Origin: Atribacter laminatus | GTDB lineage: Bacteria; Atribacterota; Atribacteria; Atribacterales; Atribacteraceae | Length of the DNA stretch: 64,000 bases | Reading direction: 5' to 3' | Assembly: GCF_015775515.1 (NCBI RefSeq) | Contig: NZ_CP065383.1 | Location: forward strand, 2,480,001-2,544,000 | In this document: positions 2,772-64,000 of the stretch, in pieces | Numbering within the stretch: the first letter of the stretch is position 1 | How the letters are laid out: each line of letters starts with the position of its first letter | Position numbers and translations under genes: made by a program | Notes under the pieces: generated by a model | What the model was told of the DNA's origin: nothing | What the model saw: the letters and a program-made list of their open reading frames with translations, nothing else | Databases searched by the model: none

Positions 2772-3158
2772 TTCATTTATTTTATTATATAGGGAATAGG
2801 ATTAAAGCATATTAAAAAAATGGTATTAGTTGATTTTTATAATAAGAATTTTTACAGGTTTTTTTAATTTTTTCTCTTTTCTTAAGAATGAAAAATTTTT
2901 GGCAGTTTATCAAAAGAAAATAATGAATGAAAAAAAAGTATGGTTCTATCAAAAATAATTTGCTTGATAACTCGAAGCACTTTAAGTTTATTATTAGTAC
3001 ACTACAAAATTATACAAGCTGATAGGGTATATGAATTGCATTTGTTGAAAAAATTCTTCAATAAAAACCAATAGAATAGATAGTTTCGAATTATTCTAAA
3101 CACTAATAGGGTATTTCTATATGTTTACAAATATATTAATACCAATTCGTTAACTTTA
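2772..3158. other. AT-rich intergenic region
   Basis: No gene was recognised. The region should hold the promoter of the minus-strand UroD-like gene. It ends at the IS21-family insertion point, where CTTTA (3154-3158) is the left target duplication. Confidence 0.5.
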
Positions 3159-3524
3159 TGTTTATTGTCTTATGATAAACCCAGTAGTATGATGTTTTAG
3201 ACCCATCGAGTGCACCAAATAAATCCACTAGGTGCATACGTTAACTCCATAGCTATATATGACGGTTTAAATGAACCACAATAGCTATAAGCCCACTTTT
3301 CCGAATCATGAGTTTTACTGTTCTGAGAATAGTACTCTTTGATGGGTAGTTTGAAGGAACAAGATTAAGATTTCTATAGAACACCAGATGCCGAGGCTGT
3401 GGAGAGCGTGAACAACGTGTTTTGGTCGTCCACGAAGCGGAGGGTTGTCCACAAGAGGTCGGTACTATCCATCAGCCTCTTTAACCGGCAGACATAAATA
3501 CACTCTTAATTACTTAGTTCTGGC

Positions 3525-4268
3525 TCAATTTTTAATCCCATGTCGTTCCCTCATTGACACTTTGCCGTCAATAAGGATGGTATAGGAATCATGGACAATA
3601 CGATCAAGAATGGCATCTGCTAGTGTATCTTCGCCGATCTTTTCATGCCACCCACGTGGAGCAAATTGGGTGCAAAAAATAGTAGAAGCATTCTGATGTC
3701 TTGCTTCAACGATCTCAAGGAGATCCATTGCCTGGGTGTCTTTAAGTGGAGTTAAGAGCCATTCATCCAAAATGAGTAAGCCAACCTTTTTGTACTTCTT
3801 CATCACCATCTGATAGACACCTTCACCTCGAGCCACTGCCAGTTCATCCAGAAGATCCGGTAGTCGGATATACTTAACGGTATAATAGTTGCGACAAGCC
3901 GCCATACCAAAAGCACAGGCAACATAAGATTTCCCGTTTCCAGAGGCACCCATGATGATGAGGTTGCGTTTCTCCTGGATGTAAGCGCACCCAGATAGCC
4001 GTAGGATTTGTGCCTTATCTAGTTTCCTGTCGGCATGGTATTCAATATCTTCAATGCTAGCCTGAGGATAGCGGAAATCTGCTTTTTTAATGAGATGGAG
4101 CAGTTTATTGCTTCTGCGTTTAGCCCATTCCACATCAACAAGAATACCAACCCGTTCTTCAAACGATAGCTCCTGATATTTCTCATCAGACAGTTGGCGT
4201 TTGAAAGCATCCGCCATAGCGGAGAGTCGCATGTCATGCAGCTTGTTCATGGTCGTAGAATTAATCAT
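3525..4268 (-). CDS. istB: IS21-family helper ATPase IstB
   Basis: AAA+ ATPase related to DnaC that assists IstA in target selection. The Walker A is GASGNGKS and the Walker B LLILDEW. The C-terminal block LADAILDRIVHDSY is the usual IstB signature. I chose the ATG at 4268 (MINSTTMNKL, 247 aa) because GGAGG lies 8 bases upstream and the ORF then overlaps the end of istA by 8 bases, as is normal for IS21. The longer open frame back to 4451 lies inside istA. About 320 non-coding bases separate istB from the element end. Confidence 0.93.
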   Translation of the reverse strand: MINSTTMNKLHDMRLSAMADAFKRQLSDEKYQELSFEERVGILVDVEWAKRRSNKLLHLIKKADFRYPQASIEDIEYHADRKLDKAQILRLSGCAYIQEKRNLIIMGASGNGKSYVACAFGMAACRNYYTVKYIRLPDLLDELAVARGEGVYQMVMKKYKKVGLLILDEWLLTPLKDTQAMDLLEIVEARHQNASTIFCTQFAPRGWHEKIGEDTLADAILDRIVHDSYTILIDGKVSMRERHGIKN

Positions 4269-5814
4269 TGTCTTTTCCTCCATAGTAGCCGGCACCCCGG
4301 ACAAATCCGTAGATGTTGGGATTGTCTTTTGTCGCTTTTTGTCGATCTGATTGGACTGATATTCTATCCTGACCGGTTTTGAGGATGGTCTGGATGATTT
4401 TGAAACTCGGACTGGGCGTGTAACAAAGTGCCCGCTGGCACGCTTCTTCAAAGCGGGATAAAGAATACTTGTCAGCGAGTTTCATAAGCGATGTACAAGA
4501 ACGGTAACCTTGTTTCTCAACTCTTGATGCTGACAAAAGAGCATTCACCACAATGACGGCATGAGGTCCAATGGAAGCAGCCCAATTCCTAAAATGATCA
4601 GCATTTACAGCCAGGTACTGTTTATGTTTCTCTGGCATGTGATCCGGTACCGTGACAATCTGGCCTTCCTGACCGCGAATCCGAATATGGGAAGCAATGC
4701 GATGATTGTGGTAAAAAACTTCAACAGTTTTGCTGGTTATACGTACCTCCACTTGATGCCGGATGTACTCATAGGGCACTGAGTAGTGATTTTTATCCAC
4801 AATTATGTGATAATCGTACTGTACGGACGCCGTTGACCAGGTGGCAAGCTCGTATGGGGAAGTAGGCAAAGGCAAAAGCAGTGCTTTTTCCTCTTCTAGG
4901 AAGGCGCTTTTCCTGCTTCCCGGCTTCTTTTGAAAAGGTTTCTGGTTGAATTCTTCCAGCTTAAGACGGATGGCGCTATTCAGTTCGTGTAATGAAAAGA
5001 ACTGTTGGTTTCGCAAAGAGGCAATGATCCAGGTGGAAATAATACCCACCGTACTTTCGGCATGGGGCTTGTCTTTGGGGCGCCTGACTCGGGCTGGAAT
5101 GACTGCTGTCCCGTAATGCTCGGCCATTTCTTGATAGGTTCTATTAATCTTGGGATCTGGTCGAGAGGCTTTATCTACACTGGTTTTTAAATTGTCTGGC
5201 ACGAGGATTCTGGCCACTCCACCAAAGTATTTGAACGCATGAACATGAGCATTGACCCAGCTTTCCATATCCATTGACAGGAAGGCTTCTACATAGGCAT
5301 ACTGGCTGCAAGATAGGCTCGCTACGAAGATATAGGCTGGAATAAGTTCACCGGTTAGATTATCAACAATAAAACCAGTCTTTCCAGCCCAGTCCACTTC
5401 CAGCATTTCACCGGGTTTGCGCTTAATGCGCATAGTGGCTTTGGTGGTATTGGCATACTTATGATAATACCGACAGAATTGGCTGTACATGAGTGGGATT
5501 TCACCATTGAAGCGGCATTGTTCATGGTACTCATGCCACAACAAACTTAAGGTGACACCACTTTTGGCCATTTCTTTATGAACATATTCGCAATCCGGTA
5601 TTTTTCGATTGGACTGACTCCTTTTTTCCGGAAAAAGGAGTTCCTGAAGATCTGCATCCGACATGTTTTTATCGAAAGGCCATGAAATCTCATGCCTTTC
5701 TGCCCGTTCAACCACATTACGGATTGTGGTCCGTGAGCACTGGCAACTGGCAGCAATGCCACGTTGACTCACACCTTGGCTGTGAAGCCGAAGAATTTCT
5801 CGATACTTGATCAT
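4261..5814 (-). CDS. istA: IS21-family transposase IstA
   Basis: 517-aa DDE transposase. There is an N-terminal helix-turn-helix of the GIAASCQCSRTTIRNVV type (about residues 19-36). Catalytic acidic residues are expected at EVDWAG, VPDNLK and HAESTVG. A Mu-transposase-type C-terminal domain follows. The ATG at 5814 is preceded by a GGAGG (AGGAGGCTGATCAAAT on the minus strand). Full length for the family and apparently intact. Confidence 0.95.
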   Translation of the reverse strand: MIKYREILRLHSQGVSQRGIAASCQCSRTTIRNVVERAERHEISWPFDKNMSDADLQELLFPEKRSQSNRKIPDCEYVHKEMAKSGVTLSLLWHEYHEQCRFNGEIPLMYSQFCRYYHKYANTTKATMRIKRKPGEMLEVDWAGKTGFIVDNLTGELIPAYIFVASLSCSQYAYVEAFLSMDMESWVNAHVHAFKYFGGVARILVPDNLKTSVDKASRPDPKINRTYQEMAEHYGTAVIPARVRRPKDKPHAESTVGIISTWIIASLRNQQFFSLHELNSAIRLKLEEFNQKPFQKKPGSRKSAFLEEEKALLLPLPTSPYELATWSTASVQYDYHIIVDKNHYSVPYEYIRHQVEVRITSKTVEVFYHNHRIASHIRIRGQEGQIVTVPDHMPEKHKQYLAVNADHFRNWAASIGPHAVIVVNALLSASRVEKQGYRSCTSLMKLADKYSLSRFEEACQRALCYTPSPSFKIIQTILKTGQDRISVQSDRQKATKDNPNIYGFVRGAGYYGGKDND

Positions 5815-5968
5815 TTATTTGATCAGCCTCCTAATGAAGATTTACACTTTACAGTGTATTTCCTCATTATATGTCAGGTGGATCTCTCCATGACCAAGGT
5901 GGGCCTATTTGATACTCATGGTGGACCTTTTTGAGTATACGAGTGGGTCTATCCCAAAATATTACTCA

Positions 5969-22945: not shown

Positions 22946-23251
22946 GTAAAGGACAAGAAAGGTATCTATGTCACTGCCGGTGGTCCTTTTGGAGCAGCCA
23001 AAGCCATTAAGGATGCTGGATTGACTGGGAAATTGAAATTGGTGTGCCATGACTGGATGGAAGAAACTGTTGCTTATATCCGGTCGGGTGAAGTCACTGC
23101 CTGCCTCGATCAGGATCCTTTCAACCAAGGGTATGCCCCAGCCGTTTCAGCCTTTAATCAGATCGTCGCTGGTATCGTTCCAGAAGAAATTAACTTTTTC
23201 GAAGGGGATGTTGCTACTCCAGAAAATGTGAACGAGAAGATCCCACAATAA
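22946..23251 (+). pseudogene. C-terminal remnant of RbsB-like periplasmic sugar-binding protein
   Basis: About 101 codons in one frame, from KGIYVTAGGPFGAAKAI through VCHDWMEETVAYIRSGEVTA and DQDPFNQGYAPAVSAF to a TAA at 23249. These are typical of the C-terminal third of type-I (ribose/galactose) binding proteins. No signal peptide, N-terminal lobe or start codon with a ribosome-binding site exists upstream, so the 5' two-thirds has been deleted. A good terminator follows at once. Confidence 0.78.
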
Positions 23252-23369: not shown

Positions 23370-24329
23370 CTAATTTTGACGTTGTGTTTTTTGACAGATG
23401 AAAGTTTGATTTCTTCCCTTCCGTTTTGCCTGGTAAAGCGCATCGTCGGCATTTTTCAAAAGTGATTCAAGAGTATCGTTTGGAGTTTTTTCTGCAACTC
23501 CGAAACTAACAGTGATTCGAAATCCATATTGCGGAAAATGATAATCCTCAACCATTTTCCGAAGACGTTCGGCAAGATTTGCTGCCACTAAGGAATGAGT
23601 TTGTGGAAGAAGAAAAATAAATTCTTCACCACCAAAACGAGCTACGATATCCTCAATTCTGGAATTTTTGATAAAAATATTGCTTACATCAATCAAAACT
23701 TGATCTCCAACACTGTGTCCATGAATATCGTTAACAGTTTTGAAATGATCAATATCAGCCATAACCAAAGATAACGGTGAATGATGGCGCTTGGCAAAAG
23801 AAAAGGCACTTTCTAATTGAATCATAAAATAGCGACGATTCCATAGATTGGTGAGAGGGTCGGTATTCATCAATTTTTGAATAGTATCATTAGCTTTTTC
23901 CAGCGCTTTATTCTTTTTGTTGAGCTCGCGAACCAAGTCAGTCAGCTCGTTATTGAGGCTGGAAATTGTGGAAATTGTATTGTCCCCGGTAAGAACTGGT
24001 TTTTCCCCAATTATTAAATAAGAATCGTTTAAGCCAATAATCGTCCCAAAAACCAGAAAAGAAAAAGTATTTTCTCCCTGAAAAAGGAATTTAAAAGGAT
24101 GAATTTCATTTGGTGAGGGGAGAGGTATCGTTTTTGTCGATTCAGTAGAAATGAAATCCGAAATTGTTCTTCCAATTGGTTCGTGTGAAAGATTCAGAAG
24201 TTTGATTAAGCCCTGATTGCAGCCTATGATTTCCAAATTTGAATTAATAATGACCATAACAATTGAACTCATTTGTTCAAAATACTGGAATAGACTTTCT
24301 TGATAAAGAGAAAGATATTTTTTAAACAT
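23370..24329 (-). CDS. GGDEF diguanylate cyclase with N-terminal PAS-like region
   Basis: 319 aa. The N-terminal ~130 residues resemble a PAS sensor (MVIINSNLEIIGCNQGLIKL), followed by a short coiled coil and a C-terminal GGDEF domain from about residue 155. The active-site motif is GGEEF, and the inhibitory-site RxxD (RIED) stands five residues before it, so the enzyme should make c-di-GMP and be subject to product inhibition. It overlaps the upstream B12-binding gene by 8 bases, making it the likely output of that sensor. No transmembrane helices were seen. Confidence 0.92.
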   Translation of the reverse strand: MFKKYLSLYQESLFQYFEQMSSIVMVIINSNLEIIGCNQGLIKLLNLSHEPIGRTISDFISTESTKTIPLPSPNEIHPFKFLFQGENTFSFLVFGTIIGLNDSYLIIGEKPVLTGDNTISTISSLNNELTDLVRELNKKNKALEKANDTIQKLMNTDPLTNLWNRRYFMIQLESAFSFAKRHHSPLSLVMADIDHFKTVNDIHGHSVGDQVLIDVSNIFIKNSRIEDIVARFGGEEFIFLLPQTHSLVAANLAERLRKMVEDYHFPQYGFRITVSFGVAEKTPNDTLESLLKNADDALYQAKRKGRNQTFICQKTQRQN

Positions 24330-25458
24330 CTAAGGAATTTGCCTCATTCCACCAAGAATTGGCTAATTTTACTGCTTCTAATCCATTTGACGCCCAACCA
24401 TCAGCGCCAATTTTTTGCCAGAGATTAGTTGTATGAAAAAAGGCTAAACCTCCCACCATAATTTTTATAGCATTAAGATCAGGATCATTTTTCACTGACC
24501 AAATGATTTGTCTGGCATTTTCTATAAGATAGGGCATAGTAACCGACAAACCAAACAGAAATGGCTTCTTTCCTTTCAAGTGTTCCAGAAGATCTTGTTG
24601 AGGAATATTCGTCCCTATATAATCCACATTCCAGCCTTCAATTTCAAGTAAATCAGCAACGATACGGCCACCAACTTCGTGAAACTCATTAGGTGCCGAG
24701 GTAATGACTGCATTTCCATATTTTGTATCTATCAAAGGAAACCGTGTATATAAAGAAGCCATTATCCGGCTTACAATAGCCGTAGAAAGATGTTCTATTG
24801 CCACCGATATTTCCCCAATTTGCCAAAGAAAACCCACCCGATATAAAGCTGGTTGAATAACCTGAAGATAAAAGGGGGCTAAGTCGGCGGGGGTTTTCAC
24901 ATTTTTTTCCGAATAAAGAATACAATTTTTATAATCGCCCTGTAGGAGATAATGAAGGAATTGCTCATGTTCTTTTTGAAGGTCCCCATGGAAGGAGAGT
25001 CCAATATCTCGATTGGTTTCCACCAAATCTACCAGAGCAGGATGCCATTTAATTAAAAAATGGTAAACGAGACTCAATGATTGAGCCTCATTTGATTTCA
25101 AATGTTCTTCGATGGCTTTTATCCACTGATGAAAAGCTATAGGAAAATAATCATAATGAAAACCATGAATGTGATAAGTTCGATAAACCCAGGGAATCAT
25201 ATTTATAAGCATATCGAAATCTTGGAGCTTCATAATTTGAATGATTAAGTTAAAATGATACCGGTGGTTGTCATACATCATTTGAAGGGGGTTGTAGCCA
25301 ATTAACCGGTGAATATCAGGAAGCATACTTATTCGCGTATTTACCGTTTCAATGATTAGATCTTTTTTTCCGCATAATTCAGACCAAGAATGAGTTAAAG
25401 TTGTAGTTAACTGTTTGGCATCATTTCTCATCTGGTACAAAACCATTGGTCGGCTCAA
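24322..25458 (-). CDS. CarH-like cobalamin-binding sensor protein
   Basis: 378 aa from the TTG at 25458, chosen because AAAGGAGGTG lies 7 bases upstream (an in-frame ATG follows at 25446). The N-terminal ~150 residues are helical and unrecognised, with no MerR DNA-binding domain. A helical B12-cap module follows and contains W-QIGEISVAI-EH, an exact Wx9EH motif of CarH-type AdoCbl photoreceptors. The Rossmann B12-binding domain has the lower-ligand motif EFHEVGG (His near residue 260), then FGLSVTMPYL and IMVGGLAF. It probably senses light or cobalamin state and passes this to the overlapping diguanylate cyclase (inference). Confidence 0.85.
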   Translation of the reverse strand: MSRPMVLYQMRNDAKQLTTTLTHSWSELCGKKDLIIETVNTRISMLPDIHRLIGYNPLQMMYDNHRYHFNLIIQIMKLQDFDMLINMIPWVYRTYHIHGFHYDYFPIAFHQWIKAIEEHLKSNEAQSLSLVYHFLIKWHPALVDLVETNRDIGLSFHGDLQKEHEQFLHYLLQGDYKNCILYSEKNVKTPADLAPFYLQVIQPALYRVGFLWQIGEISVAIEHLSTAIVSRIMASLYTRFPLIDTKYGNAVITSAPNEFHEVGGRIVADLLEIEGWNVDYIGTNIPQQDLLEHLKGKKPFLFGLSVTMPYLIENARQIIWSVKNDPDLNAIKIMVGGLAFFHTTNLWQKIGADGWASNGLEAVKLANSWWNEANSLDV

Positions 25459-26203
25459 ATTAACACCTCCTTTTTTTAAACTCAAAAAATCTTTGTTTAT
25501 TATACCTTTTTTAATGAGAAGTTATAAAATGATTCCCACTTCATGTTTTTCGTTGATTTTGAATAAGACCAATGCATACCTAACTCGATTGATTTTTAAA
25601 AAGCTTTTTCAAAATAATTTCTTTCCTTCTATTGGATAAACATTTCTTTCTTTTCTTAGTTATTATTCTAAGTTGGGTATTGGGTGAAGTAAGAATCCTA
25701 TCTGATGCTTTGGACGTCATCCTGAACCCGCTTTCTTACTCCTTTTTCTCTCCCTCGCCCCATCGCGCTCTTATTCTCTGAGGGTGTGAATATCCCATCT
25801 GACTCCATCGTCATCCTGAGGATTCGCTTTTCGAAGCCGTGAGAATCTCATCCTTTTTTTTTCCACGATCTCCCAATCCCCAATCCAACCTATATTCTAA
25901 AATCAAAACCTGAACTTCAAGATTTATTAATTCAAATAGCAATAATTTTCATTCATAAATATAATTTAATTAATAATATTAAATAATGATCGAATTCAAA
26001 AATCAAGACATGATGCTCAAGAATTCGTTATACTAAATCAGATAGGGGAAAGAAAGTGGTAAAAAACTAATGAATAATGGAGGAAAATATATTTTATATA
26101 ATTAAATAATTTAAATAATTTATTGAAAAAGCTTGAATTGGCATTTAAAGCCAGTTAGAATGGGTCTTAGTAAAAATTCTTTATAGATAGGAGAGAGAAA
26201 GGA
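25459..26203. other. intergenic region with a diverged hairpin repeat
   Basis: About 745 bases between divergent genes, so it should hold promoters for both. It contains one copy of the GTCATCCTGAG...GTGAGAATCTCATC hairpin repeat at 25809-25854 and, after it, a decayed form of the AATCAAGACCTGA end motif near 25900-25922. The rest is AT-rich. GGAGAGAGAAAGG just before 26204 is the ribosome-binding site of the next gene. Confidence 0.6.
25809..25854 (+). repeat. GTCATCCTGAG hairpin repeat
   Basis: Outer arms GTCATCCTGAGG and GTGAGAATCTCATC surround the inner stem GCTTTTCGAAGC. The same unit occurs many times between 31.9 and 50.4 kb. Confidence 0.7.
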
Positions 26204-34015: not shown

Positions 34016-36417
34016 CTCATCGTTACCCATATCTCCCCTGTCTGGACACCGAAGGAGGTTTGCAAGGCGGATCAAATTGACAGTAAGGAAAGAGGACCTT
34101 GTACGTCGAGGTGATATCGTCTAAACGTTGGAGTCCCAACCACATGCTTTTGGTTCCAGGATGGCCATCCCCTTTGCGCCCCAAGAACCCTCCCAAGGAA
34201 GCCACCATCCTGATGGCTTCTTGAAGAGTCGGAGGATGAGCTGGTGGAAGAGGATTGTGAGTAACATAGGCAACTAAAGCTTTCCACTCGGCTTCTTCAA
34301 AGAAAACAGTACAGGGAACATCGGGGGTTTCTCGTCCTTGCTTGGCTAAAAAGAAGATCCGCCAGGCAACCACGAGATCAATAGCCAGACAATTTTCAAT
34401 TCGATCGGCAGTTCGAAGCTGGCGCTCTTCAATTTTGCAGCCACTCTTCAAGGTCCGGTGGTAGATTTCAATCAACCACCGATGACAGTACCACTGTATT
34501 CGTTCACAGGCATCTTGAAAGTGATGAACCGGCATGGTGGTGAGGAGCACCCAGCTGATGGGGTCACTCCCATCGGGAGGAGGAGTCTCTTCTTCCGCGC
34601 TCACCGCCCACAGCGTAACGGGAGGTTCTTGAGGACGGTTGCGAGGCGGTTGAAGGGTCACCTCGCAAAAGCGAACAACGAGTTCGGCGTGACGGGCTCG
34701 ACGGTTTTTCCGTCGGGGAACGGTGATGGGTTGACATCCAGCACCTGGGGTGGTGGCCAGTTTTTGGAGATAGGTTCCTTCTTCTCCAGCCAGAGCTCGT
34801 TTTTGAAAAGCTCGAATGAGCAGTTTGGGAGCGTGGGGATGGGTCGTCGCCCGCACAAAGAGATCATACAGATCAGCTTCCCGATCGGCGATACTCACCA
34901 GAGTGGTCTGAGGGCATTCTTTTTGCAGACGAGCGGTGGCATCAAAACTTGTTAACCAACGCTGGCTTTCTTTTTCTTCTAAGGGAAGCACTGAGCGCCG
35001 GTGTTTTTTCCCGAGGCTTGCTGGATCACGGGCATAACATTGGATATCGACTAATCCTAAAGGAACCCCATTGGGAGTCACGGCTAAGCTAGCATGCAGG
35101 AGGAGTCCAATGGCTTTTTGGGAGCTGGTGCCGATTGGTCCGAACCCTTCGGTCTCAAGATGGGTTTGATAGTTGAGGGTGGTGGTGTCTTGACAGACCA
35201 GAGCCAAGGGTTCTTGAGCGACTCGATGTTGAGTCGAGCGGAAGTGGGGAGCAAGGATGGTCTTCAGGTTCATGGCTGGATGATCGAAAAACCGGTAGCA
35301 CGCCTTGGTTTTGGCTCGGCTGCCACAGACTTGGGGGATATTCCCGGTGGGACAGGCATAGAAATCCCGGACCAGGGTGAGCAAGCGTTTTTTGAGTCGG
35401 AGATCGCCACAGCTGACTCCTTGGAATTCCTCTTCCACCCAATCGGCAAATTCCACTGGGGAGGAAGGAGGAAAAGTAGACACATCTCTTTCATTATACC
35501 GTAAAAGGGTCCGATAGTGACGGTGGAGCGGATAGAGAAAAAGACGTTTGACTGAAACGGGATGCTGGGCGAACCGGTCTTGGCGACCTCGGCCGTTGGT
35601 GAAGCCGGCGTCGATCCAGTTGGCGGCTCGATAAGCGGTTCCTCGATAAAAGCGGGTATCAACAAAAGTTTCAAGGAGCAGCGGCCTCACCTGATAGCGA
35701 TGGTACCAATCAGCAGGAAGCCGACGGATCGCCAGTGAGAGGACAAAAGACGCCAGATTCTTCACCCTTACCTCAGGACGGAGGAGAAACCGGCTGTTAT
35801 TGACCACCTGTGATAAGTTGGCGGCTCGAGTGTGATCATTCCAGCCGATAAAGGTATCTCGGGCTTTCACCCGCCAGGCGGCAGCGCTAAAGGCCAGACC
35901 CCCAATCACTCCATAGCGGTGACTGTGAATGAGGTAGCGAAGCTGGGCTCCGCATAAAGGACCGGATCGCAAGGGATGGTAGCGATCAAAAAGAGTATTT
36001 CAGAGGTGAGAGGCTGATTTATCCTGACTGGTCACCAGCACAAGCTTTGTCTCCCCGAGGTCAGCTATTGAACCAGTGATACCCGGCAAGGGTTCAAGGA
36101 AGGGATCAGGCCCTGATTTTCGTTGAGGAATCGAGCGGTGATGAGGAGCCGGGAGAGTCAGTTTCCCCCATTTTTCTAGGCGAAGGAGTGCCACCCGGGC
36201 GCTCATCTCTTTCCATTTTCCATTGGGGCTTTTCCAGTCCAACCATTCACAGACCAGTCGAGAGAGTGCCCTTCGAGAAATGATCGGTTCCTGGTTGACT
36301 TTTTCTTGTATAGTTTGGATCATCGTATCGGTAAACTCGTGACCGCAGACTTTCATGCGGAGGAGTATAGCACCTTTTGCCCATTGTGTCCAGAGTAAGG
36401 TTATGGGACACGATGAG
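34016..36417 (-). mobile_element. IS4/Tn5-like insertion sequence with DruA-like N-terminal region
   Basis: 2402 bp. Imperfect terminal inverted repeats share CTCATCGT, a CCCATA block and TCTGGACAC on both ends. A 9-bp target duplication CTTTAGAAA flanks it (34007-34015 and 36418-36426), as expected for Tn5/IS50-like transposases. It has inserted into a dispersed TTTAGAAAAGGGGG repeat. The G+C content is visibly higher than that of the surroundings, so it came from elsewhere. Confidence 0.9.
34023..36356 (-). pseudogene. DruA-domain/Tn5-like transposase fusion split by TGA
   Basis: A single frame of about 777 codons from the ATG at 36356 is interrupted only by a TGA at 36000-36002. The first part plus the region after the stop (RYHPLRSGPLCGAQLRYL, RDTFIGWNDHTRAANL, NNSRFLLRPEVRVKNLAS, LETFVDTRFYRGTAYRAANW) is a DUF4338/DruA-type domain. 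A Tn5-like transposase follows: CQDTTTLNY, SIADREADLYDL and the Y-(2)-R-(3)-E-(6)-K signature YCHRWLIEIYHRTLK. The TGA stands where relatives usually have Trp before the YHYLG-like block. The downstream part is open for 649 codons from a TTG at 35972 and might still be translated alone. The final TAA lies in the inverted repeat. Confidence 0.85.
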
Positions 36418-53217: not shown

Positions 53218-54149
53218 AAAAAATCAGGAGAAAGATAATTGAATAAGATTTTCATTATCATCACGTTGATCACCCTGCTCACTCTTCCAACTATTGCACA
53301 AACCTACGAGGTCTCGAGAGTCATTGACGGCGATACCATCGAATTATCAAACGGAGAACAGGTCCGCTATATTGGCATAGACACTCCAGAATTTCACAAT
53401 GGGATACCAAACCCTTACGCTCAAGAATCTTATGAAGCAAACAGAAAATTAGTAGAAGGAAAAGAGGTGTATCTCGAGCTCGATATAAAAGAACGAAACA
53501 AATACGGCAGGATCCTCACTTACGTTTATGTTGATGGCATTTTCGTCAATACCTAGCTTATTGAAAACGGATATGCCCAGATCATGACCATCCCACCGAA
53601 TATTACCCATCAGGAACTATTTTTACCGCCCCAGACCAAAGCACGGGAGGGGAATAGAGGATTATGGGGATTTGAAGGAAATGCAAACATTGAATCCGGT
53701 GATATCATTTATCCGTATGTCGGAAAGCGGAACAGTATGAAATTTCATCATCACTACTATAATTTGGTGAACGATATGAAAGATGTTTATTGTCTTATGA
53801 TAAACCCAGTAGTATGATGTTTTAGACCCATCGAGTGCACCAAATAAATCCACTAGGTGCATACGTTAACTCCATAGCTATATATGACGGTTTAAATGAA
53901 CCACAATAGCTATAAGCCCACTTTTCCGAATCATGAGTTTTACTGTTCTGAGAATAGTACTCTTTGATGGGTAGTTTGAAGGAACAAGATTAAGATTTCT
54001 ATAGAACACCAGATGCCGAGGCTGTGGAGAGCGTGAACAACGTGTTTTGGTCGTCCACGAAGCGGAGGGTTGTCCACAAGAGGTCGGTACTATCCATCAG
54101 CCTCTTTAACCGGCAGACATAAATACACTCTTAATTACTTAGTTCTGGC

Positions 54150-54893
54150 TCAATTTTTAATCCCATGTCGTTCCCTCATTGACACTTTGCCGTCAATAAG
54201 GATGGTATAGGAATCATGGACAATACGATCAAGAATGGCATCTGCTAGTGTATCTTCGCCGATCTTTTCATGCCACCCACGTGGAGCAAATTGGGTGCAA
54301 AAAATAGTAGAAGCATTCTGATGTCTTGCTTCAACGATCTCAAGGAGATCCATTGCCTGGGTGTCTTTAAGTGGAGTTAAGAGCCATTCATCCAAAATGA
54401 GTAAGCCAACCTTTTTGTACTTCTTCATCACCATCTGATAGACACCTTCACCTCGAGCCACTGCCAGTTCATCCAGAAGATCCGGTAGTCGGATATACTT
54501 AACGGTATAATAGTTGCGACAAGCCGCCATACCAAAAGCACAGGCAACATAAGATTTCCCGTTTCCAGAGGCACCCATGATGATGAGGTTGCGTTTCTCC
54601 TGGATGTAAGCGCACCCAGATAGCCGTAGGATTTGTGCCTTATCTAGTTTCCTGTCGGCATGGTATTCAATATCTTCAATGCTAGCCTGAGGATAGCGGA
54701 AATCTGCTTTTTTAATGAGATGGAGCAGTTTATTGCTTCTGCGTTTAGCCCATTCCACATCAACAAGAATACCAACCCGTTCTTCAAACGATAGCTCCTG
54801 ATATTTCTCATCAGACAGTTGGCGTTTGAAAGCATCCGCCATAGCGGAGAGTCGCATGTCATGCAGCTTGTTCATGGTCGTAGAATTAATCAT
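54150..54893 (-). CDS. istB: IS21-family helper ATPase IstB (copy B)
   Basis: Same 247-aa protein as at 3525-4268: Walker A GASGNGKS, Walker B LLILDEW, ATG overlapping the istA stop by 8 bases, GGAGG ribosome-binding site. No differences seen from copy A. Confidence 0.93.
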   Translation of the reverse strand: MINSTTMNKLHDMRLSAMADAFKRQLSDEKYQELSFEERVGILVDVEWAKRRSNKLLHLIKKADFRYPQASIEDIEYHADRKLDKAQILRLSGCAYIQEKRNLIIMGASGNGKSYVACAFGMAACRNYYTVKYIRLPDLLDELAVARGEGVYQMVMKKYKKVGLLILDEWLLTPLKDTQAMDLLEIVEARHQNASTIFCTQFAPRGWHEKIGEDTLADAILDRIVHDSYTILIDGKVSMRERHGIKN

Positions 54894-56439
54894 TGTCTTT
54901 TCCTCCATAGTAGCCGGCACCCCGGACAAATCCGTAGATGTTGGGATTGTCTTTTGTCGCTTTTTGTCGATCTGATTGGACTGATATTCTATCCTGACCG
55001 GTTTTGAGGATGGTCTGGATGATTTTGAAACTCGGACTGGGCGTGTAACAAAGTGCCCGCTGGCACGCTTCTTCAAAGCGGGATAAAGAATACTTGTCAG
55101 CGAGTTTCATAAGCGATGTACAAGAACGGTAACCTTGTTTCTCAACTCTTGATGCTGACAAAAGAGCATTCACCACAATGACGGCATGAGGTCCAATGGA
55201 AGCAGCCCAATTCCTAAAATGATCAGCATTTACAGCCAGGTACTGTTTATGTTTCTCTGGCATGTGATCCGGTACCGTGACAATCTGGCCTTCCTGACCG
55301 CGAATCCGAATATGGGAAGCAATGCGATGATTGTGGTAAAAAACTTCAACAGTTTTGCTGGTTATACGTACCTCCACTTGATGCCGGATGTACTCATAGG
55401 GCACTGAGTAGTGATTTTTATCCACAATTATGTGATAATCGTACTGTACGGACGCCGTTGACCAGGTGGCAAGCTCGTATGGGGAAGTAGGCAAAGGCAA
55501 AAGCAGTGCTTTTTCCTCTTCTAGGAAGGCGCTTTTCCTGCTTCCCGGCTTCTTTTGAAAAGGTTTCTGGTTGAATTCTTCCAGCTTAAGACGGATGGCG
55601 CTATTCAGTTCGTGTAATGAAAAGAACTGTTGGTTTCGCAAAGAGGCAATGATCCAGGTGGAAATAATACCCACCGTACTTTCGGCATGGGGCTTGTCTT
55701 TGGGGCGCCTGACTCGGGCTGGAATGACTGCTGTCCCGTAATGCTCGGCCATTTCTTGATAGGTTCTATTAATCTTGGGATCTGGTCGAGAGGCTTTATC
55801 TACACTGGTTTTTAAATTGTCTGGCACGAGGATTCTGGCCACTCCACCAAAGTATTTGAACGCATGAACATGAGCATTGACCCAGCTTTCCATATCCATT
55901 GACAGGAAGGCTTCTACATAGGCATACTGGCTGCAAGATAGGCTCGCTACGAAGATATAGGCTGGAATAAGTTCACCGGTTAGATTATCAACAATAAAAC
56001 CAGTCTTTCCAGCCCAGTCCACTTCCAGCATTTCACCGGGTTTGCGCTTAATGCGCATAGTGGCTTTGGTGGTATTGGCATACTTATGATAATACCGACA
56101 GAATTGGCTGTACATGAGTGGGATTTCACCATTGAAGCGGCATTGTTCATGGTACTCATGCCACAACAAACTTAAGGTGACACCACTTTTGGCCATTTCT
56201 TTATGAACATATTCGCAATCCGGTATTTTTCGATTGGACTGACTCCTTTTTTCCGGAAAAAGGAGTTCCTGAAGATCTGCATCCGACATGTTTTTATCGA
56301 AAGGCCATGAAATCTCATGCCTTTCTGCCCGTTCAACCACATTACGGATTGTGGTCCGTGAGCACTGGCAACTGGCAGCAATGCCACGTTGACTCACACC
56401 TTGGCTGTGAAGCCGAAGAATTTCTCGATACTTGATCAT
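54886..56439 (-). CDS. istA: IS21-family transposase IstA (copy B)
   Basis: Same 517-aa DDE transposase as at 4261-5814, with EVDWAG, VPDNLK and HAESTVG catalytic segments and an N-terminal helix-turn-helix. The full identity of the two proteins indicates recent transposition and probable activity. Confidence 0.95.
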   Translation of the reverse strand: MIKYREILRLHSQGVSQRGIAASCQCSRTTIRNVVERAERHEISWPFDKNMSDADLQELLFPEKRSQSNRKIPDCEYVHKEMAKSGVTLSLLWHEYHEQCRFNGEIPLMYSQFCRYYHKYANTTKATMRIKRKPGEMLEVDWAGKTGFIVDNLTGELIPAYIFVASLSCSQYAYVEAFLSMDMESWVNAHVHAFKYFGGVARILVPDNLKTSVDKASRPDPKINRTYQEMAEHYGTAVIPARVRRPKDKPHAESTVGIISTWIIASLRNQQFFSLHELNSAIRLKLEEFNQKPFQKKPGSRKSAFLEEEKALLLPLPTSPYELATWSTASVQYDYHIIVDKNHYSVPYEYIRHQVEVRITSKTVEVFYHNHRIASHIRIRGQEGQIVTVPDHMPEKHKQYLAVNADHFRNWAASIGPHAVIVVNALLSASRVEKQGYRSCTSLMKLADKYSLSRFEEACQRALCYTPSPSFKIIQTILKTGQDRISVQSDRQKATKDNPNIYGFVRGAGYYGGKDND

Positions 56440-56676
56440 TTATTTGATCAGCCTCCTAATGAAGATTTACACTTTACAGTGTATTTCCTCATTATATGTC
56501 AGGTGGATCTCTCCATGACCAAGGTGGGCCTATTTGATACTCATGGTGGACCTTTTTGAGTATACGAGTGGGTCTATCCCAAAATATTACTCAAAGAGAA
56601 AAATAAGGTCTTTTTTAAGACAAGGGAAGAAGCGATTGAGGCTGGATATGTGCCGTGTAAAAGGTGTAAGCTATAA

Positions 56677-57345: not shown

Positions 57346-60300
57346 TTATCCAAGAATTACCTTTAAGTCACTGAAATGGACTTCAACAAATTTGATACTA
57401 GTTTTTAAATTTCCTAATCTTAATTCAATTTCAGGTTTATCATTATTCTTAATAGAGTAATATAGATCATTCATTGTGTTTTCATCGTTCTTTACAAATT
57501 CTTTATACATTGCTGCACATAATGGGCAAAGAGCTAAGAACTGTGCTTCATGCTCTTTTTTAAAAAAATCTCTTGATAAAGCTTCTACTGCCTCGAAATA
57601 ATACTCACCATCACGCTTTTTGAAAGGCATTACATTTTTACAGATCTGGCAAATCATTTCATCATTTTTGTTGGTATATTTGTTTCTTAGCCAAATATTT
57701 GGATCTATCGAACCCCTGGATGTCCTAACGCTTCTTTCAGTTTTTTCGTATTCTTTAATAGAAGCATTTTTAATTTGTTTAAATATTTGTTCTTTTCGAC
57801 GCTCCAAATTATGAGCCGCATCTGTTGGAAAGACTGGCTTTTCGTTTCTCATCGATACACTTTTTTTCCATTGTATGAATTCTTCTGGGTGCAGTTTTAT
57901 AAAATTAATATCCTCAGCATGAATGCCTACTTTTTCTGCAAGCTCAGCAACCATGTTTTTTTTAAATCCTAATAGATTTTCGAGCTTTTTATCACTTTTA
58001 AAAAGTTCAGGAAGTTCGTCAATGTATAATTGACTTGGTTTTTTAAAAACTCCATTAACGTCTGGTAACCAAGAATTTTCCATCAATAATCGTCCAAATT
58101 CGGATATTACCTCTTTTTTTTCACTGTTCAGATAGTTTTGATTGGTTGATTTTTCTACAATACCTCTAATGCAATCAGAATTAGGAATAGCAATAGTGTT
58201 CCAAATATATGCGCTTTTTTCTAAAGAGGGTGATTTCAAAGCATGTTCTAAACCTTCTATTTGAATATCGGGATCAAATCCGTTTAAACCGCGTTTATGG
58301 TCAGCATAATAATCTCTAATTATTACAAACCCTCTTGGATCAGAATTTTTTTTGATAACTTTAACTTTATTTCTAACACCAAGGTCTCTAAATAAATTAA
58401 ATAAGGAATCACTATAATTCGAAGAAACAAATCCAACTGATATATTACCTTCAAAATATATTTTTAATTTCTCATTAAAAAAATAGACCTCTGATGGTTT
58501 ACGATATGTTATCTCATTTGAGCCATTAATTTCAGCTAAAATAAAAGCCGATTTTTCAAGAGCCTTATATAATCTATTTTTTTTATCTTGGGAATCCGTT
58601 TTATATGCATGTTGGATTTTATCGATATCAGAAAGATGATCTTTTAAAGAGGGAGGTTTTGATGTAGATGAGTATTTAGGAATTACATATTTAATGACCT
58701 CCTCTACAATATCCAGCTCTGGAATACCCAATTCTTTTAAAAAAATCCGTGCAGATTTATCGTCAGCGATTTTAGTTTTTACAACTGGTAAAGAAATATC
58801 TCCATTTATTTCAATAGGTAAATAGACATTTGGTAAGCCATCATCACTAAAAGGTTTTACATGCTGTCCATTTTGGGTACGTATAATTGGTTTTTCGCGA
58901 AGAGGTACATCTCCGTTCCAAATGGAATTAGTAAATCTCTTTTTCCACAAATTTCTTTGTTCTATAAGTTGCCTGTAGAACTCAATGAACCATTTATCTG
59001 ATTGTTTTTCAAAAAAGTGAATATCCACCTTACGTGCAAATGTGTCAGGATAAATCACATCTATTTTTAATTCATTTCGAAAAAATTTCCATAAAATAGA
59101 ACTTTCGGTTACATCACTAGAAATCCATTTCAGAGGTGCATTAGTTTTAAATAACTGTTTAAGCTGTTCTTCTCTTAACAATTTTCGTAACCATTCTCCT
59201 CTAGCTAATTTAGCATTTCTAGCAGACACGAATGTCTTATCATCAGTTGGAAGTAATTCAGTATTCAGTAGTACATCACGAACCGCAACGAAAATTGGAT
59301 AAAATATACTATCTTTATCTTCAGAAATGTTATTTAATCTACTAATGAGTGCTTCTAGAAAATTAACTTTTAAAAGATTTCTTTCCTTTAATTCTGGCAA
59401 TGAGGTCTTAACTAGTTCTGATGCGCATGTCATCAACCAACGATTCCACGGCACATCCCTAATATCTTCTCGTGAACTTGGCAAAATAAAGTCACCATTG
59501 ATCAGAAAAGGCAAACCCGAATCAGAACGAACAGGCAAATAGGCAAAAATTTTCCCTATGCCCCTTTGATTATTATTTATTGGAAATGCGATTGATACTT
59601 CTCGTTCTCTGATATTTTCTCGTTTTTCTTGAATAATTTCAGGTGGTCTATTAAAGGATTTAGAAAAAAATAGAAATTCAAAAGAGTCTAAATATGAATT
59701 GACTAACCTCTTTTTCTCAACATAAATTTTGACTAAAGGTAAAAGCGAATCGTCTTTCCATATCCTCATCATACTTACTTTATTAGTTTGGATTCTAATT
59801 TCTTTGATCTTTGTCAAAAAAAGAATTATTTCTGGTTGAATATCATGAAGCATTTTTTCAACGTCTGAATAATTAATTTCAATTTTATTGAGAGGCAATA
59901 TAATAGTAGTATGAGAGTTATTAATTAGTTTATCCGGAAGTTTTTCAACCCATTGGGGTACAATATATCCAAGTCCTGTTATTTCTTCTTCTTCAGGGAA
60001 GCAAATACTATAACCATTAGAAATTATATGAGGTTTTGATGTTACTTTAAAAACGGACTTGAAGCCTATTCCTTTTTCTCCGATATATCCCTGATTTTTT
60101 TTCTTGGTAGATTTTCCTATTGCACAGATTGCTTCAATGTTTTCTGGAGAAAAACCTAACTCATTATTATGAATAATCAATGCTCCATCAGATCCTTTGG
60201 TTTCGGTAGGATCCTTTTGCACTAAATGAAATGACAGACTTGGTTTTGTGTTATGAGGATAAGTATTGTCCTCAGCGTTTTGAATTAATTCAAATATAAA

Positions 60301-60459
60301 GTGAACGTTACTTGAATAAAGGCCATCGGAAAGATGTTTTATAGAATCCATGAGATCTGAAGATAAAGGATTGCGTCCTTTTTTAAGATAACCATTTTCA
60401 TCAATCCAATACTTTTTTAATCTTATCTTATTGATATGTTCACGTGCACCTTTAAACAA
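57346..60459 (-). CDS. sacsin-like GHKL ATPase with C-terminal Cys-rich module
   Basis: About 1037 aa from a TTG at 60459 (GAGGGGGG upstream; overlaps the helicase stop by 8 bases). The N-terminal GHKL/HSP90-like ATPase has N-box FIFELIQNAEDN, then EAICAIGKS and the G2 motif YIGEKGIGFKSVFKV. A long middle region, largely unassigned, follows with FLINGDFILPSSRED (sacsin-repeat-like). Near the C-terminus CQICKNVMPFKKRDGEYYFE and LALCPLCAAMY give two CxxC pairs for a zinc-binding module, possibly nuclease-related. It is paired with the SNF2 helicase upstream. A role in anti-phage defence is inferred from this pairing and the island context. Confidence 0.8.
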   Translation of the reverse strand: MFKGAREHINKIRLKKYWIDENGYLKKGRNPLSSDLMDSIKHLSDGLYSSNVHFIFELIQNAEDNTYPHNTKPSLSFHLVQKDPTETKGSDGALIIHNNELGFSPENIEAICAIGKSTKKKNQGYIGEKGIGFKSVFKVTSKPHIISNGYSICFPEEEEITGLGYIVPQWVEKLPDKLINNSHTTIILPLNKIEINYSDVEKMLHDIQPEIILFLTKIKEIRIQTNKVSMMRIWKDDSLLPLVKIYVEKKRLVNSYLDSFEFLFFSKSFNRPPEIIQEKRENIREREVSIAFPINNNQRGIGKIFAYLPVRSDSGLPFLINGDFILPSSREDIRDVPWNRWLMTCASELVKTSLPELKERNLLKVNFLEALISRLNNISEDKDSIFYPIFVAVRDVLLNTELLPTDDKTFVSARNAKLARGEWLRKLLREEQLKQLFKTNAPLKWISSDVTESSILWKFFRNELKIDVIYPDTFARKVDIHFFEKQSDKWFIEFYRQLIEQRNLWKKRFTNSIWNGDVPLREKPIIRTQNGQHVKPFSDDGLPNVYLPIEINGDISLPVVKTKIADDKSARIFLKELGIPELDIVEEVIKYVIPKYSSTSKPPSLKDHLSDIDKIQHAYKTDSQDKKNRLYKALEKSAFILAEINGSNEITYRKPSEVYFFNEKLKIYFEGNISVGFVSSNYSDSLFNLFRDLGVRNKVKVIKKNSDPRGFVIIRDYYADHKRGLNGFDPDIQIEGLEHALKSPSLEKSAYIWNTIAIPNSDCIRGIVEKSTNQNYLNSEKKEVISEFGRLLMENSWLPDVNGVFKKPSQLYIDELPELFKSDKKLENLLGFKKNMVAELAEKVGIHAEDINFIKLHPEEFIQWKKSVSMRNEKPVFPTDAAHNLERRKEQIFKQIKNASIKEYEKTERSVRTSRGSIDPNIWLRNKYTNKNDEMICQICKNVMPFKKRDGEYYFEAVEALSRDFFKKEHEAQFLALCPLCAAMYKEFVKNDENTMNDLYYSIKNNDKPEIELRLGNLKTSIKFVEVHFSDLKVILG

Positions 60460-63400
60460 TATTATTACCCCCCTCAATGAATAAAATTCCAATTGCAACA
60501 AGGTCTGCAATTATGTCTGCTTTTCTCACAGCAATATCAATATCCTGTATATGTCTTTCGTAATCTGCTTCAGCGGCTAGTATTTGGGATTGGCGCATTC
60601 TTTTAATTTTCTCATCAGATGCACTCTTTAACTGTTCTTCAAGTAGCATTAGCCTTGACCGATGGCTGGTAGATAAACTTTCCCTTCGATATTCAGCCAA
60701 TTCTTGGGTTTGTTGGCGATGCTTATCTCTCGCTTCTGACCATAATTTATAATGTTGCTCATCTAATTCATTCCAAACCGGAATGTTAATAATATCCTGA
60801 ATTTCAACTGTAAAATCTTTCGCTTTTTCAAGTAATTGAGTAAGATGGGGTTTTATTAACTCTGATTTAGCAACCGGACAAAGTACTAAATCTTCCTTGA
60901 TACCATGGAATCTCCATTGATAAATGGCAAATTCATATTGACCCGTTGGAACATCATTAATTTGCACTTTTAATTTAGTTATAACTCGTTGTTTTGCATC
61001 AAATGTATTTGCTGCTTGTTTTACTAAAGGGTGGTGTGGCATTATAAAAGTAGCATTATGGTTATGTAATGCACAGTCCGATTCGAAGGTAATAATAAGA
61101 TGAGGATTGCCTTCTTTTAACCACTTCATCCACTCACGATATTGAATAGTGTTTTGTTTTGGAAGACGTTGAAAATCATGCAAAAGTTTATTCCGTGCGT
61201 CTTGTGATAGGCGGAGGGTCTTTAAGGGCTTTTCGCCAAGAATGTAATCTTGTTCCTTTCCGCATGTTTGTTTTAAATAGCAATCTACCAACCTATAAAT
61301 TGATTTGGGTGATAGCCAATAGCTTGTGGCTTCTTCTATTTCTTTTCTAAATTTATCTTCAGGGAAATGAATTCCAAATAATTCCATCTGCCTTTCTTCA
61401 AGGGATTCTTGCTCTTGTATCAACCTAATCTTGTTATCTGCTAATTGCTGTAGTTTTGATCTTCGTTCTTCTGTGTTTAGGATATAGTTTTCAGCAATGT
61501 TTTTGATCTCCCTAGTAATTTCCCCGAGTATTTCTTCACAGGAACCCAAAGCATTATTAAAAACTCCTATTCGAAGAAGGCAACGCTCATAGATGTCAGC
61601 GTCTACAGTTCCTGGAGTAACCATGTTGATAATGGTTACAGTCTCGCTTTTCTGACCTTTTCTATCAATACGACCAATTCGTTGCTCTACACGCATAGGA
61701 TTCCAAGGTAGATCATAATTAACAATACAATCGCAAAACTGATAATCCAAACCCTCACATCCAACTTCCGAAAATAATAGAAGATCAAGGCTATCTGCTT
61801 CTTCTCGTGGTTTCTCAAAGCGATTTCTCAACGAAACTCGTTCTTCTTCAGGTGTATCACCATGTACCATTCCTACTCGGAAACCCTTTTTTACAAGATT
61901 TTTATAAAGATAATGAAGCGTGTGTCGAAAACTACTAAACAGCATCAATTTATTATTATAGAGGTTTTGCTTATCTCGAATAACGTTATACAAAGCCTCG
62001 AGCTTTGGATCATAAGGATCAAGCAAACGTGCTCTATTAAGCAGTGTCTGAATCTGCATTTGGATTGGAATAACAACATCGTTTTTTGGTATCGTTTCAG
62101 TATCATCAGCTTCATCCCATAACAATTCATCTATGTGGCAGTTTAAAATATCTTCAAGGAAAGGAACGAGTCCAAAAATACAACTTGCCGCTTGGCGCCT
62201 AATAGTTGTCATCATAAACTTGATATTGACATCTCCATGAAGTCTGCTAAATATTTCAGCTTGTAATTGTAGTAACTCATCATGAAGATTTTTTTGAGCA
62301 GGAGTGAATTCAACAGCTACTGTTTCTGGTTTTCGCATTGTAAAATCTCCAATATCTCTACGACGAGTTCTATTAATTATTCCTGCAAATGTATACAAAT
62401 TTTCAATTTCTGTAACTAAATGTATTCTCTCATTATCGTTTATATTTCCTTCAGTCAATCTTGAACATATTCTCGTAAACTCGGGATTATGTCTTAGAAT
62501 TGCTTTGCCCCAATTCGTATTTGCTGCTTGAACAAGGGCTTCAAGTGTTTTGGCAGGCCATTCATTTTCTCGGGTACGAACTAGAGACACTGCTTTATTA
62601 ATGAAAGGATTAGGTTCTGCCATATGTTCATAACTTTCCTGATCTATGATTAAATCTGGCCGAAGAGCATTGAGGAGAACAAAAAGGTCTTGACTTCCTA
62701 ACTGAATTGGTGTTGCCGTCAAAAAAACGACTGCTCCTGCGTAATCACAGAAGAATCTCACTGCTTTATGGCTAAAAGTGTTTTGGTTCCTAATATGATG
62801 AGCTTCATCAACTATAACAAGATCAAACCGTGGGGGTGGGTCGAGATCAAGGAGACCCTTTTTCCGTTTTCTTTTATCACTTGGGTTTGAACCATAAAGT
62901 AGAGCCTCGTCGAATAAAGAATAGGGAATTATTGCCTTATGATATTCTTCTGGCCAAACTCCTTCTAGATCCATCTCTTGAATGCAGTATCGTAAGGTTC
63001 TTCCATCAAGATGAGAAAATCGTTCATCAAAACGCTTCATCTCATTCTGCCATTTACGTTCAGTAATCAGTGGGCGCGGACATATGATTAGAATAGAACG
63101 AATGTCGTGTCTCGCTTGAAGCTCCCGAAGGATTAGGCCTGCTTCAATGGTCTTACCAACACCTACACCATCAGCAATTAGCAACCTCGGTCGATCCGAT
63201 CTGATAAATCTTAAAACAGGTCTGAATTGATATGGGATAAAATCAATTCGGGCTGCATTAAGTGAGTAGAGTGTGGACACACCTGGATATCTTATATGTA
63301 GGGCAGTAAGGTAAGATTGAAATTCCTCACAAGAAAAAAATACATACTCGTTTTCATATATACTTTCAGCATGCAGTTGAGAAGCATAAAACGTTTGAAC

Positions 63401-64000
63401 TTCATTGTCCACAAAGACTTTAATGCGATTCTCTGGCATACTGGGTATAATAGAAATAACAGCACCTCGAACATTTGGGTTCGACTTCAAAAAAACAATT
63501 TGTCCTGGTTCAAACTCTGAATAAAGTTTGTTATCTTGTGACGACAGGGAACCATTTTTTTCATTTCGGTTGCAAAAAATTAATTTATTTGCTAGTACAT
63601 TTTCTTCAATTAAACATAATTCCTTAAACAAATCATCATTTGGTCCAATGATTTCAGAAAAGTTGTGGAGTGTATCTAGATTACGATATAAACTTTCAAG
63701 TGAAAAATCTTTTTCTGTCGTGTAAGACCAACGATTGTACATTAACTGCGTTTTTTTAACGAAATGACGTGCTTTTTCTGTAAGGCCTAATTTAATTGAT
63801 ATTTCATACCAATTTTTATCAAATATTCTAAGCAATCCGTCAAGATCTAATTCTTTGAGAGAGCTAATGTTGTTCTGTTCTACAAAGTGCTTTTGCTGAA
63901 ACGATAAAGAATTTAATACGGCTTGGTTCCACCAATCCTCAAACAAAGATGGCAACATCTTTTCAAGAAATTGAGCAAGTTGTTTAGTTACTATACTTAA
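60452..64000 (-). CDS. SNF2-family helicase, N-terminus beyond window
   Basis: At least 1182 codons, and the frame stays open to the right edge, so the ATG at 63958 (no Shine-Dalgarno) is probably internal. The N-terminal ~130 residues (LFEDWWNQAVLNSLSFQQKH; SLKELDLDGLLRIFDKNWYE) resemble Swt1-like HEPN-type N-domains on large defence proteins (tentative). The helicase core follows: Walker A DGVGVGKTIEAGLIL, DEAH box VIVDEAHHIRN, motif III FLTATPIQLGS, then helicase C VGMVHGDTPEEERV, SEVGCEGLDYQF and EQRIGRIDRKGQ. This fits RapA/DISARM-DrmD-like SNF2 proteins. The C-terminal ~250 residues include charged helices. Confidence 0.87.
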   Translation of the reverse strand, partial: LSIVTKQLAQFLEKMLPSLFEDWWNQAVLNSLSFQQKHFVEQNNISSLKELDLDGLLRIFDKNWYEISIKLGLTEKARHFVKKTQLMYNRWSYTTEKDFSLESLYRNLDTLHNFSEIIGPNDDLFKELCLIEENVLANKLIFCNRNEKNGSLSSQDNKLYSEFEPGQIVFLKSNPNVRGAVISIIPSMPENRIKVFVDNEVQTFYASQLHAESIYENEYVFFSCEEFQSYLTALHIRYPGVSTLYSLNAARIDFIPYQFRPVLRFIRSDRPRLLIADGVGVGKTIEAGLILRELQARHDIRSILIICPRPLITERKWQNEMKRFDERFSHLDGRTLRYCIQEMDLEGVWPEEYHKAIIPYSLFDEALLYGSNPSDKRKRKKGLLDLDPPPRFDLVIVDEAHHIRNQNTFSHKAVRFFCDYAGAVVFLTATPIQLGSQDLFVLLNALRPDLIIDQESYEHMAEPNPFINKAVSLVRTRENEWPAKTLEALVQAANTNWGKAILRHNPEFTRICSRLTEGNINDNERIHLVTEIENLYTFAGIINRTRRRDIGDFTMRKPETVAVEFTPAQKNLHDELLQLQAEIFSRLHGDVNIKFMMTTIRRQAASCIFGLVPFLEDILNCHIDELLWDEADDTETIPKNDVVIPIQMQIQTLLNRARLLDPYDPKLEALYNVIRDKQNLYNNKLMLFSSFRHTLHYLYKNLVKKGFRVGMVHGDTPEEERVSLRNRFEKPREEADSLDLLLFSEVGCEGLDYQFCDCIVNYDLPWNPMRVEQRIGRIDRKGQKSETVTIINMVTPGTVDADIYERCLLRIGVFNNALGSCEEILGEITREIKNIAENYILNTEERRSKLQQLADNKIRLIQEQESLEERQMELFGIHFPEDKFRKEIEEATSYWLSPKSIYRLVDCYLKQTCGKEQDYILGEKPLKTLRLSQDARNKLLHDFQRLPKQNTIQYREWMKWLKEGNPHLIITFESDCALHNHNATFIMPHHPLVKQAANTFDAKQRVITKLKVQINDVPTGQYEFAIYQWRFHGIKEDLVLCPVAKSELIKPHLTQLLEKAKDFTVEIQDIINIPVWNELDEQHYKLWSEARDKHRQQTQELAEYRRESLSTSHRSRLMLLEEQLKSASDEKIKRMRQSQILAAEADYERHIQDIDIAVRKADIIADLVAIGILFIEGGNNIV

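Follow-up and report, generated by a model that had tools for sequence, protein, structure and literature searches.

A split photocobilin-type gene pair predicted to place a diguanylate cyclase under the control of a B12 sensor in Atribacter laminatus

What does a predicted CarH-type B12 photosensor control when it carries no DNA-binding domain and its gene runs into that of a diguanylate cyclase, and which signal does it read? The gene pair that raises this question lies on the minus strand of the window, the 64,000-nucleotide stretch analysed here, which is part of the single-contig 3.1 Mb genome of Atribacter laminatus. An earlier note had proposed that light or B12 state acts at this locus on c-di-GMP instead of transcription. 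In outline the proposal is supported; it is not unprecedented, as such control has been shown in photocobilins (PMC10979010), and B12 light control of c-di-GMP is already established and not new here. The parts worth following are a coiled coil specific to the signalling partner and a changed globin pocket.

The overlapping genes and the B12 module

The upstream gene (24322..25458, minus) encodes a predicted B12 photosensor of 378 residues from a TTG start, in which an N-terminal phycobiliprotein-like globin precedes a CarH-type cobalamin-binding module. The mechanical open reading frame starts at TTG 25485 and spans 387 residues; TTG 25458, the start given earlier, is the better one because a GGAGG lies 7 nt before it. 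Residue numbers here follow the 387-residue frame (minus 9 for the 378-residue protein). The downstream gene (23370..24329, minus; ATG start) encodes a 319-residue diguanylate cyclase with a PAS-like domain, a transmitter coiled coil and a GGDEF domain. As previously described, the two reading frames share 8 bases (24322..24329, minus), an overlap that suggests translational coupling. A promoter-like site, TTTATA-18-TATAAT, assigned by consensus match only, lies upstream of the operon (25499..25528, minus). Pfam finds in the cyclase a weak PAS match and a complete PF00990 (23406..23867, minus; E 1.1e-45). Both of its sites are intact, as claimed: GGEEF at the active site (23619-23633, minus) and, 5 residues before it, RIED as the inhibitory RxxD (23649-23660, minus).

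The B12 module consists of a four-helix cap (PF02607; 24751..24966, minus) and a Rossmann domain (PF02310; 24370..24714, minus). The exact Wx9EH adenosyl-pocket motif that had drawn attention to the protein is WQIGEISVAIEH, at residues 221-232 (24790..24825, minus). The lower axial cobalt ligand, His269, sits in an ExH motif (24679..24687, minus) that reads EFH, and the protein also carries ExHxxG. Across 52 homologues the W, E and H of the adenosyl pocket and the lower-ligand H are invariant, and among the stretches examined around the six B12-domain matches of this genome only the window sensor has Wx9EH; a chance motif was rejected on these grounds. Since the genome encodes a BtuR/CobO adenosyltransferase, AdoCbl can be made from corrinoid, and the residues of the module predict that the sensor binds it.

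The comparison with CarH/LitR proteins (TtCarH) extends to Wx9EH, the ExH lower ligand and the B12-binding fold. It ends at the output, here an enzyme, and at the N-terminus, where Pfam finds no MerR DNA-binding domain, as had been noted, and a globin stands instead; identity as a MerR/CarH repressor was accordingly rejected. Three of the four elements that SignatureFinder lists for light-responsive B12 domains are present, namely GxxW (G218/W221), EH (E231/H232) and GxxxP (G291/P295). The fourth, GxxH, is not: the stretch reads N266-E-F-H269, and the Gly is absent in all 21 members of the clade to which the window sensor belongs, usually replaced by Asn. Moreover, Gln222 takes the place of the upper ligand His132, with which CarH forms its bis-His light state, and this rules out a His ligand switch of the CarH kind. 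The Gln is shared with SasPcob, which responds to light all the same (PMC11796333). Judged from its residues, the window sensor may do so as well.

Several other features of the window can be recorded. On the plus strand just downstream of the cyclase, 22950-23251 holds about 100 open codons with no start region remaining; by reading, the frame resembles the C-terminal part of a sugar-binding transport protein, and a single comparison yielded no match. Two identical 2811-base IS21-family copies (IstA/IstB; 3158-5968 and 53783-56593) attest to recent transposition, and at 34023-35972 (minus) a DruA-like domain (PF14236) is fused to a Tn5-type transposase. Two large overlapping genes at 57346-63958 (minus) form a candidate phage-defence pair; one product is TmtA-like and includes a sacsin-type domain (PADLOC E 6e-104), and the other is an SNF2 helicase that resembles DrmD and has HEPN_Swt1 at its N-terminus (E 5e-111).

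A globin with an altered pocket

The sensor is not an isolated B12 module: the earlier note had missed a globin of about 150 residues. Residues 1-170 have no Pfam match, and several lines of evidence predict an N-terminal helical globin domain of the photoglobin-like type at about residues 12-157 (25015..25452, minus). AlphaFold2 gives a confident helical model (pLDDT 91 for the whole sensor, 90 for the N-terminal domain alone), for which the top 50 Foldseek matches of the domain alone are globins or phycobiliproteins (probability up to 1.00 and TM about 0.55-0.6, though E is only about 0.03). The profile of the window clade's own N-terminal domains finds nothing among PDB sequences. The sensor tree contains a second clade, parted from the window clade by a fully supported branch, and the N-terminal profile of this sister clade matches allophycocyanin (E 2.8e-9) and the SasPcob globin (5e-8); one of its members also lies above the Pfam phycobilisome cut-off. 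Aligned with hhalign, the N-terminal domains of the two clades agree over 113 columns (probability 87, E 3.7e-6). Fold and sister clade together thus identify the domain as a probable phycobiliprotein-like globin.

Since the window sensor joins a globin to a CarH-type B12 module, photocobilins are the right comparison, and they are also the best sequence matches to the whole sensor among solved structures (8j2w/8j2x), with Foldseek in agreement. Photocobilins, for which light-driven Co-C cleavage is a defining trait, bind AdoCbl and biliverdin and fall into groups with the B12 domain at the N- or C-terminus (PMC10979010). AbDPcob, a fusion of B12 module, globin and diguanylate cyclase, and the standalone SasPcob share with the window sensor the CarH-type module and the phycobiliprotein-like globin; AbDPcob is further alike in controlling a diguanylate cyclase, as is predicted here, and SasPcob in its Gln at the position of CarH His132. 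Unlike in both, the globin precedes the B12 module, and the cyclase comes from a gene of its own that overlaps the sensor gene, and has its own PAS domain and transmitter coil. The window protein is therefore best seen, on present evidence, as a standalone photocobilin-like sensor with the globin first.

The pocket of this globin differs from that of SasPcob, in which Asp270 holds biliverdin (PMC10979010). The corresponding stretch reads M70-Y-D-N73-H74-R-Y-H77 (25255..25278, minus), and N73 aligns with Asp270 (published residue numbers differ from the chain index by 5, a shift anchored on Trp61). At this position 20 of 21 window-clade members have Asn and 29 of 31 sister-clade members Asp. 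The window clade also has Met at the Cys position throughout (21/21) and keeps His74 (20/21), His77 (21/21) and W99, the Trp aligned with SasPcob Trp296 (20/21). The sister clade resembles the photoglobin family of Schneider et al. 2022 in its (C/S/T)xQD signature, and the window clade differs from it with M-x-x-N-H-x-x-H; both clades share with that family, as far as it is portrayed in PMC10151467 and PMC10979010, a globin linked to a B12-binding domain and to signal-transduction genes. The pocket Asp is not an absolute photocobilin feature, because AbDPcob, with His in its place, still binds biliverdin at about 20% occupancy (PMC10979010).

The surrounding genes offer a further, weaker contrast. 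Canonical heme oxygenase (PF01126) was not found in this genome; it occurs in 1 of 21 window-clade genomes and 5 of 29 sister-clade genomes, a weak difference. A heme oxygenase (L091) or ABM-family gene lies directly upstream of the sensor in 9 of 31 sister-clade loci and in none of the window clade; ABM is a broad family, not every member of which degrades heme. Heme oxygenase requires oxygen. Most of the window clade comes from lineages known to be anaerobic (Atribacterota, Thermodesulfobacteria, Syntrophomonadaceae). Biliverdin is an unlikely ligand of the window-clade globin, which has probably lost the ability to bind it and would act as a scaffold or hold another ligand. The strict conservation of the Met/Asn/His/His pocket suggests that it has been retained in a different role.

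Smaller pieces of the domain occur elsewhere. One genome (G008, contig 47; L043:2431-2613) contains a 60-residue remnant of the sensor globin domain, 59% identical and with no cyclase nearby, which is a decayed copy within the sensor family. At L102:5977-6417, a small separate open reading frame beside a short B12 protein aligns with the sensor globin, which there forms a gene of its own; two more small frames beside short B12 proteins (L126:5581-5928 and L042:7591-7998) are possible separate globins by size and place only. L102, and possibly L042 and L126, resemble the split genes of BBAG-2 clusters, in which a globin is associated with a separate B12-binding protein (PMC10151467); in contrast, the window protein has both fused and belongs to a family paired with a diguanylate cyclase or kinase.

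A recurring gene pair and its coiled coil

The earlier note had suggested a survey of genomes for the same pair, and such a scan of a genome collection returned 80 sensor loci. A signalling gene follows the sensor, usually with an overlap or gap of a few bases. The pairing recurs across many bacteria and in one archaeon, and is thus present in relatives. GGDEF partners occur in Atribacterota, Thermodesulfobacteriota, Nitrospirota, Bacillota, Spirochaetota and Fusobacteriota (Ilyobacter), and histidine-kinase partners in others, including Paenibacillus, Chloroflexota and the archaeon Methanohalophilus. The expectation that the pair would be out of place in an anaerobe does not hold, given the makeup of the window clade and the occurrence of the same sensor-GGDEF pair in Ilyobacter. 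Parsimony places 6 changes of output type on the sensor tree, at least 3 of them on well-supported branches (a quick tree with some long branches, and outputs scored by simple motifs); with at least 3 such swaps, the response of the sensor may differ between members. What appears to be new is twofold: sensor and partner form a conserved operon of two genes, with GGDEF and histidine-kinase outputs alternating behind one coiled coil of 35 residues, and the window sensor belongs to a mostly anaerobic clade with Asn in place of the bilin-holding Asp.

Across the aligned partners, similarity is slight apart from some 35 residues that immediately precede the output domain. In the window cyclase this shared stretch comprises residues 116-150, DNTISTISSLNNELTDLVRELNKKNKALEKANDTI, and corresponds to a transmitter coiled coil (ISSLNNELTDLVRELNKKN...; 23880..23984, minus) common to the GGDEF and kinase partners of B12 sensors. 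Searched with a profile of the coil, 72 of 80 sensor loci return a partner at E<1e-3, about 30 of these 72 being outside the profile, some of them (Paenibacillus) close kin of its rows; in at least two of the 8 misses (L054, L058) the contig breaks off on the partner side. Outside sensor pairs the best match among 2127 open reading frames reaches E=0.26, and the 16 remaining GGDEF proteins encoded in this genome give no match. Among 101 genomes, strong matches (E<1e-9) occur in exactly the six Atribacterota genomes with a close sensor gene (G000, G003, G004, G020, G027, G041). Three further matches are marginal (E 0.004-0.005), and the scan did not pick up a remoter kinase-type pair (G074), which indicates limited sensitivity. 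In G020 one contig ends at the sensor and another at the coil-bearing cyclase, as would be seen if a single operon had been broken. The coil is a plausible receiver of the sensor's signal. Conservation of the pair across phyla, together with this partner-specific coil, makes the proposed coupling of a CarH-type B12 module to a diguanylate cyclase well supported as a prediction.

Candidate signals and outputs

The available data are compatible with a model, held with somewhat better than even confidence, in which a split photocobilin-type operon encodes an AdoCbl photosensor that controls its own cyclase by protein contact, probably without biliverdin. The sensor would bind AdoCbl between the four-helix cap and the Rossmann domain; His269 would supply the lower ligand, Trp221, Glu231 and His232 would surround the adenosyl group, and the N-terminal globin would pack on the B12 module. 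Loss of the adenosyl group, brought about by green light or in another way, would change the shape or oligomeric state of the sensor, which would contact the PAS/coiled-coil region of its partner, alter the pairing of two GGDEF copies and thereby set GGDEF activity; the window-clade globin, its biliverdin binding probably lost, would contribute as scaffold or as binder of another ligand. The precedent is biochemical: illumination raises cyclase activity more than 10-fold in the AbDPcob fusion, and separate photocobilins alter an isolated cyclase domain in trans by protein contact (PMC10979010). We infer both direct contact between sensor and cyclase and the direction of the effect. The output of the cyclase would enter a network of 17 GGDEF, 1 EAL and 16 HD-GYP-type (HD_5) matches in this genome, in which no PilZ receptor for c-di-GMP was found. 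Since flagellar components were not found in the A. laminatus type strain (PMC11227167), motility is an unlikely output.

Of the possible inputs (light, B12 state and redox state), light is ranked first, with moderate confidence, because of the invariant adenosyl pocket and this precedent. Points against it are the missing GxxH, the Gln in place of CarH His132 and the likely origin of the host in a dark aquifer: strain RT761, its likely source, was obtained from aquifers at depths of 490-900 m by way of a settling pond at the surface (PMC7736352). Some weight, perhaps a quarter of the total, goes to a sensor of B12 status or of redox state and oxygen, which would report bound AdoCbl against other cobalamins or none, or cobalt oxidation, and set c-di-GMP accordingly. 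Such a sensor would suit a probably anaerobic host in the dark subsurface (PMC7736352); photo- and redox chemistry come together in CarH itself (PMC10442372), AdoCbl binding alone lowers the cyclase activity of AbDPcob relative to the apo protein (PMC10979010), and the altered globin pocket suggests that a second chromophore has been lost. It accounts less readily for adenosyl-pocket residues typical of light-responsive B12 domains that are kept without exception, and for relatives apparently from hot springs and the surface, which may meet light.

A full two-chromophore photocobilin, with a globin that takes up biliverdin or some other bilin and so broadens the response to red light, is improbable. 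Homology to the SasPcob globin and phycobiliproteins through the sister clade, the retained W99 and the adjoining heme oxygenase or ABM-family genes of sister-clade loci speak for it; the Asn and Met substitutions, the lack of PF01126 in this genome (with its weak contrast between clades) and the oxygen demand of heme oxygenase weigh more heavily on the other side. A corrinoid shuttle of the methyltransferase type (MtaC/MtbC-like), standing beside the cyclase with no functional link, was rejected as very improbable, since, despite sharing PF02607 and PF02310 and similar Foldseek scores with the sensor, it leaves the adenosyl-pocket motif, the globin, the conserved overlap with signalling partners and the coil unexplained, and no methyltransferase gene directly adjoins the sensor gene.

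Beyond the split photocobilin-type operon favoured here, a broader and more tentative proposal is that B12-globin sensors form a widespread two-gene system that drives interchangeable cyclases or kinases through one coiled-coil plug, and that its mostly anaerobic branch, with the Met/Asn/His/His pocket, senses something other than light plus biliverdin, such as another tetrapyrrole, B12 state, or oxygen and redox. To our knowledge, such a system of B12-globin sensor and coil-bearing output has not been described as such, and photocobilins have so far been studied as single proteins or fusions. The partner-marking coil would provide a sequence handle for the physiological outputs of photocobilin-type sensors, may serve as a modular switch ready for use with cyclases or kinases, and gives a way of asking what maintains a light-type B12 pocket in anaerobes that live in the dark. 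In turn, the clade with Asn for Asp would offer a direct test of globin function without biliverdin.
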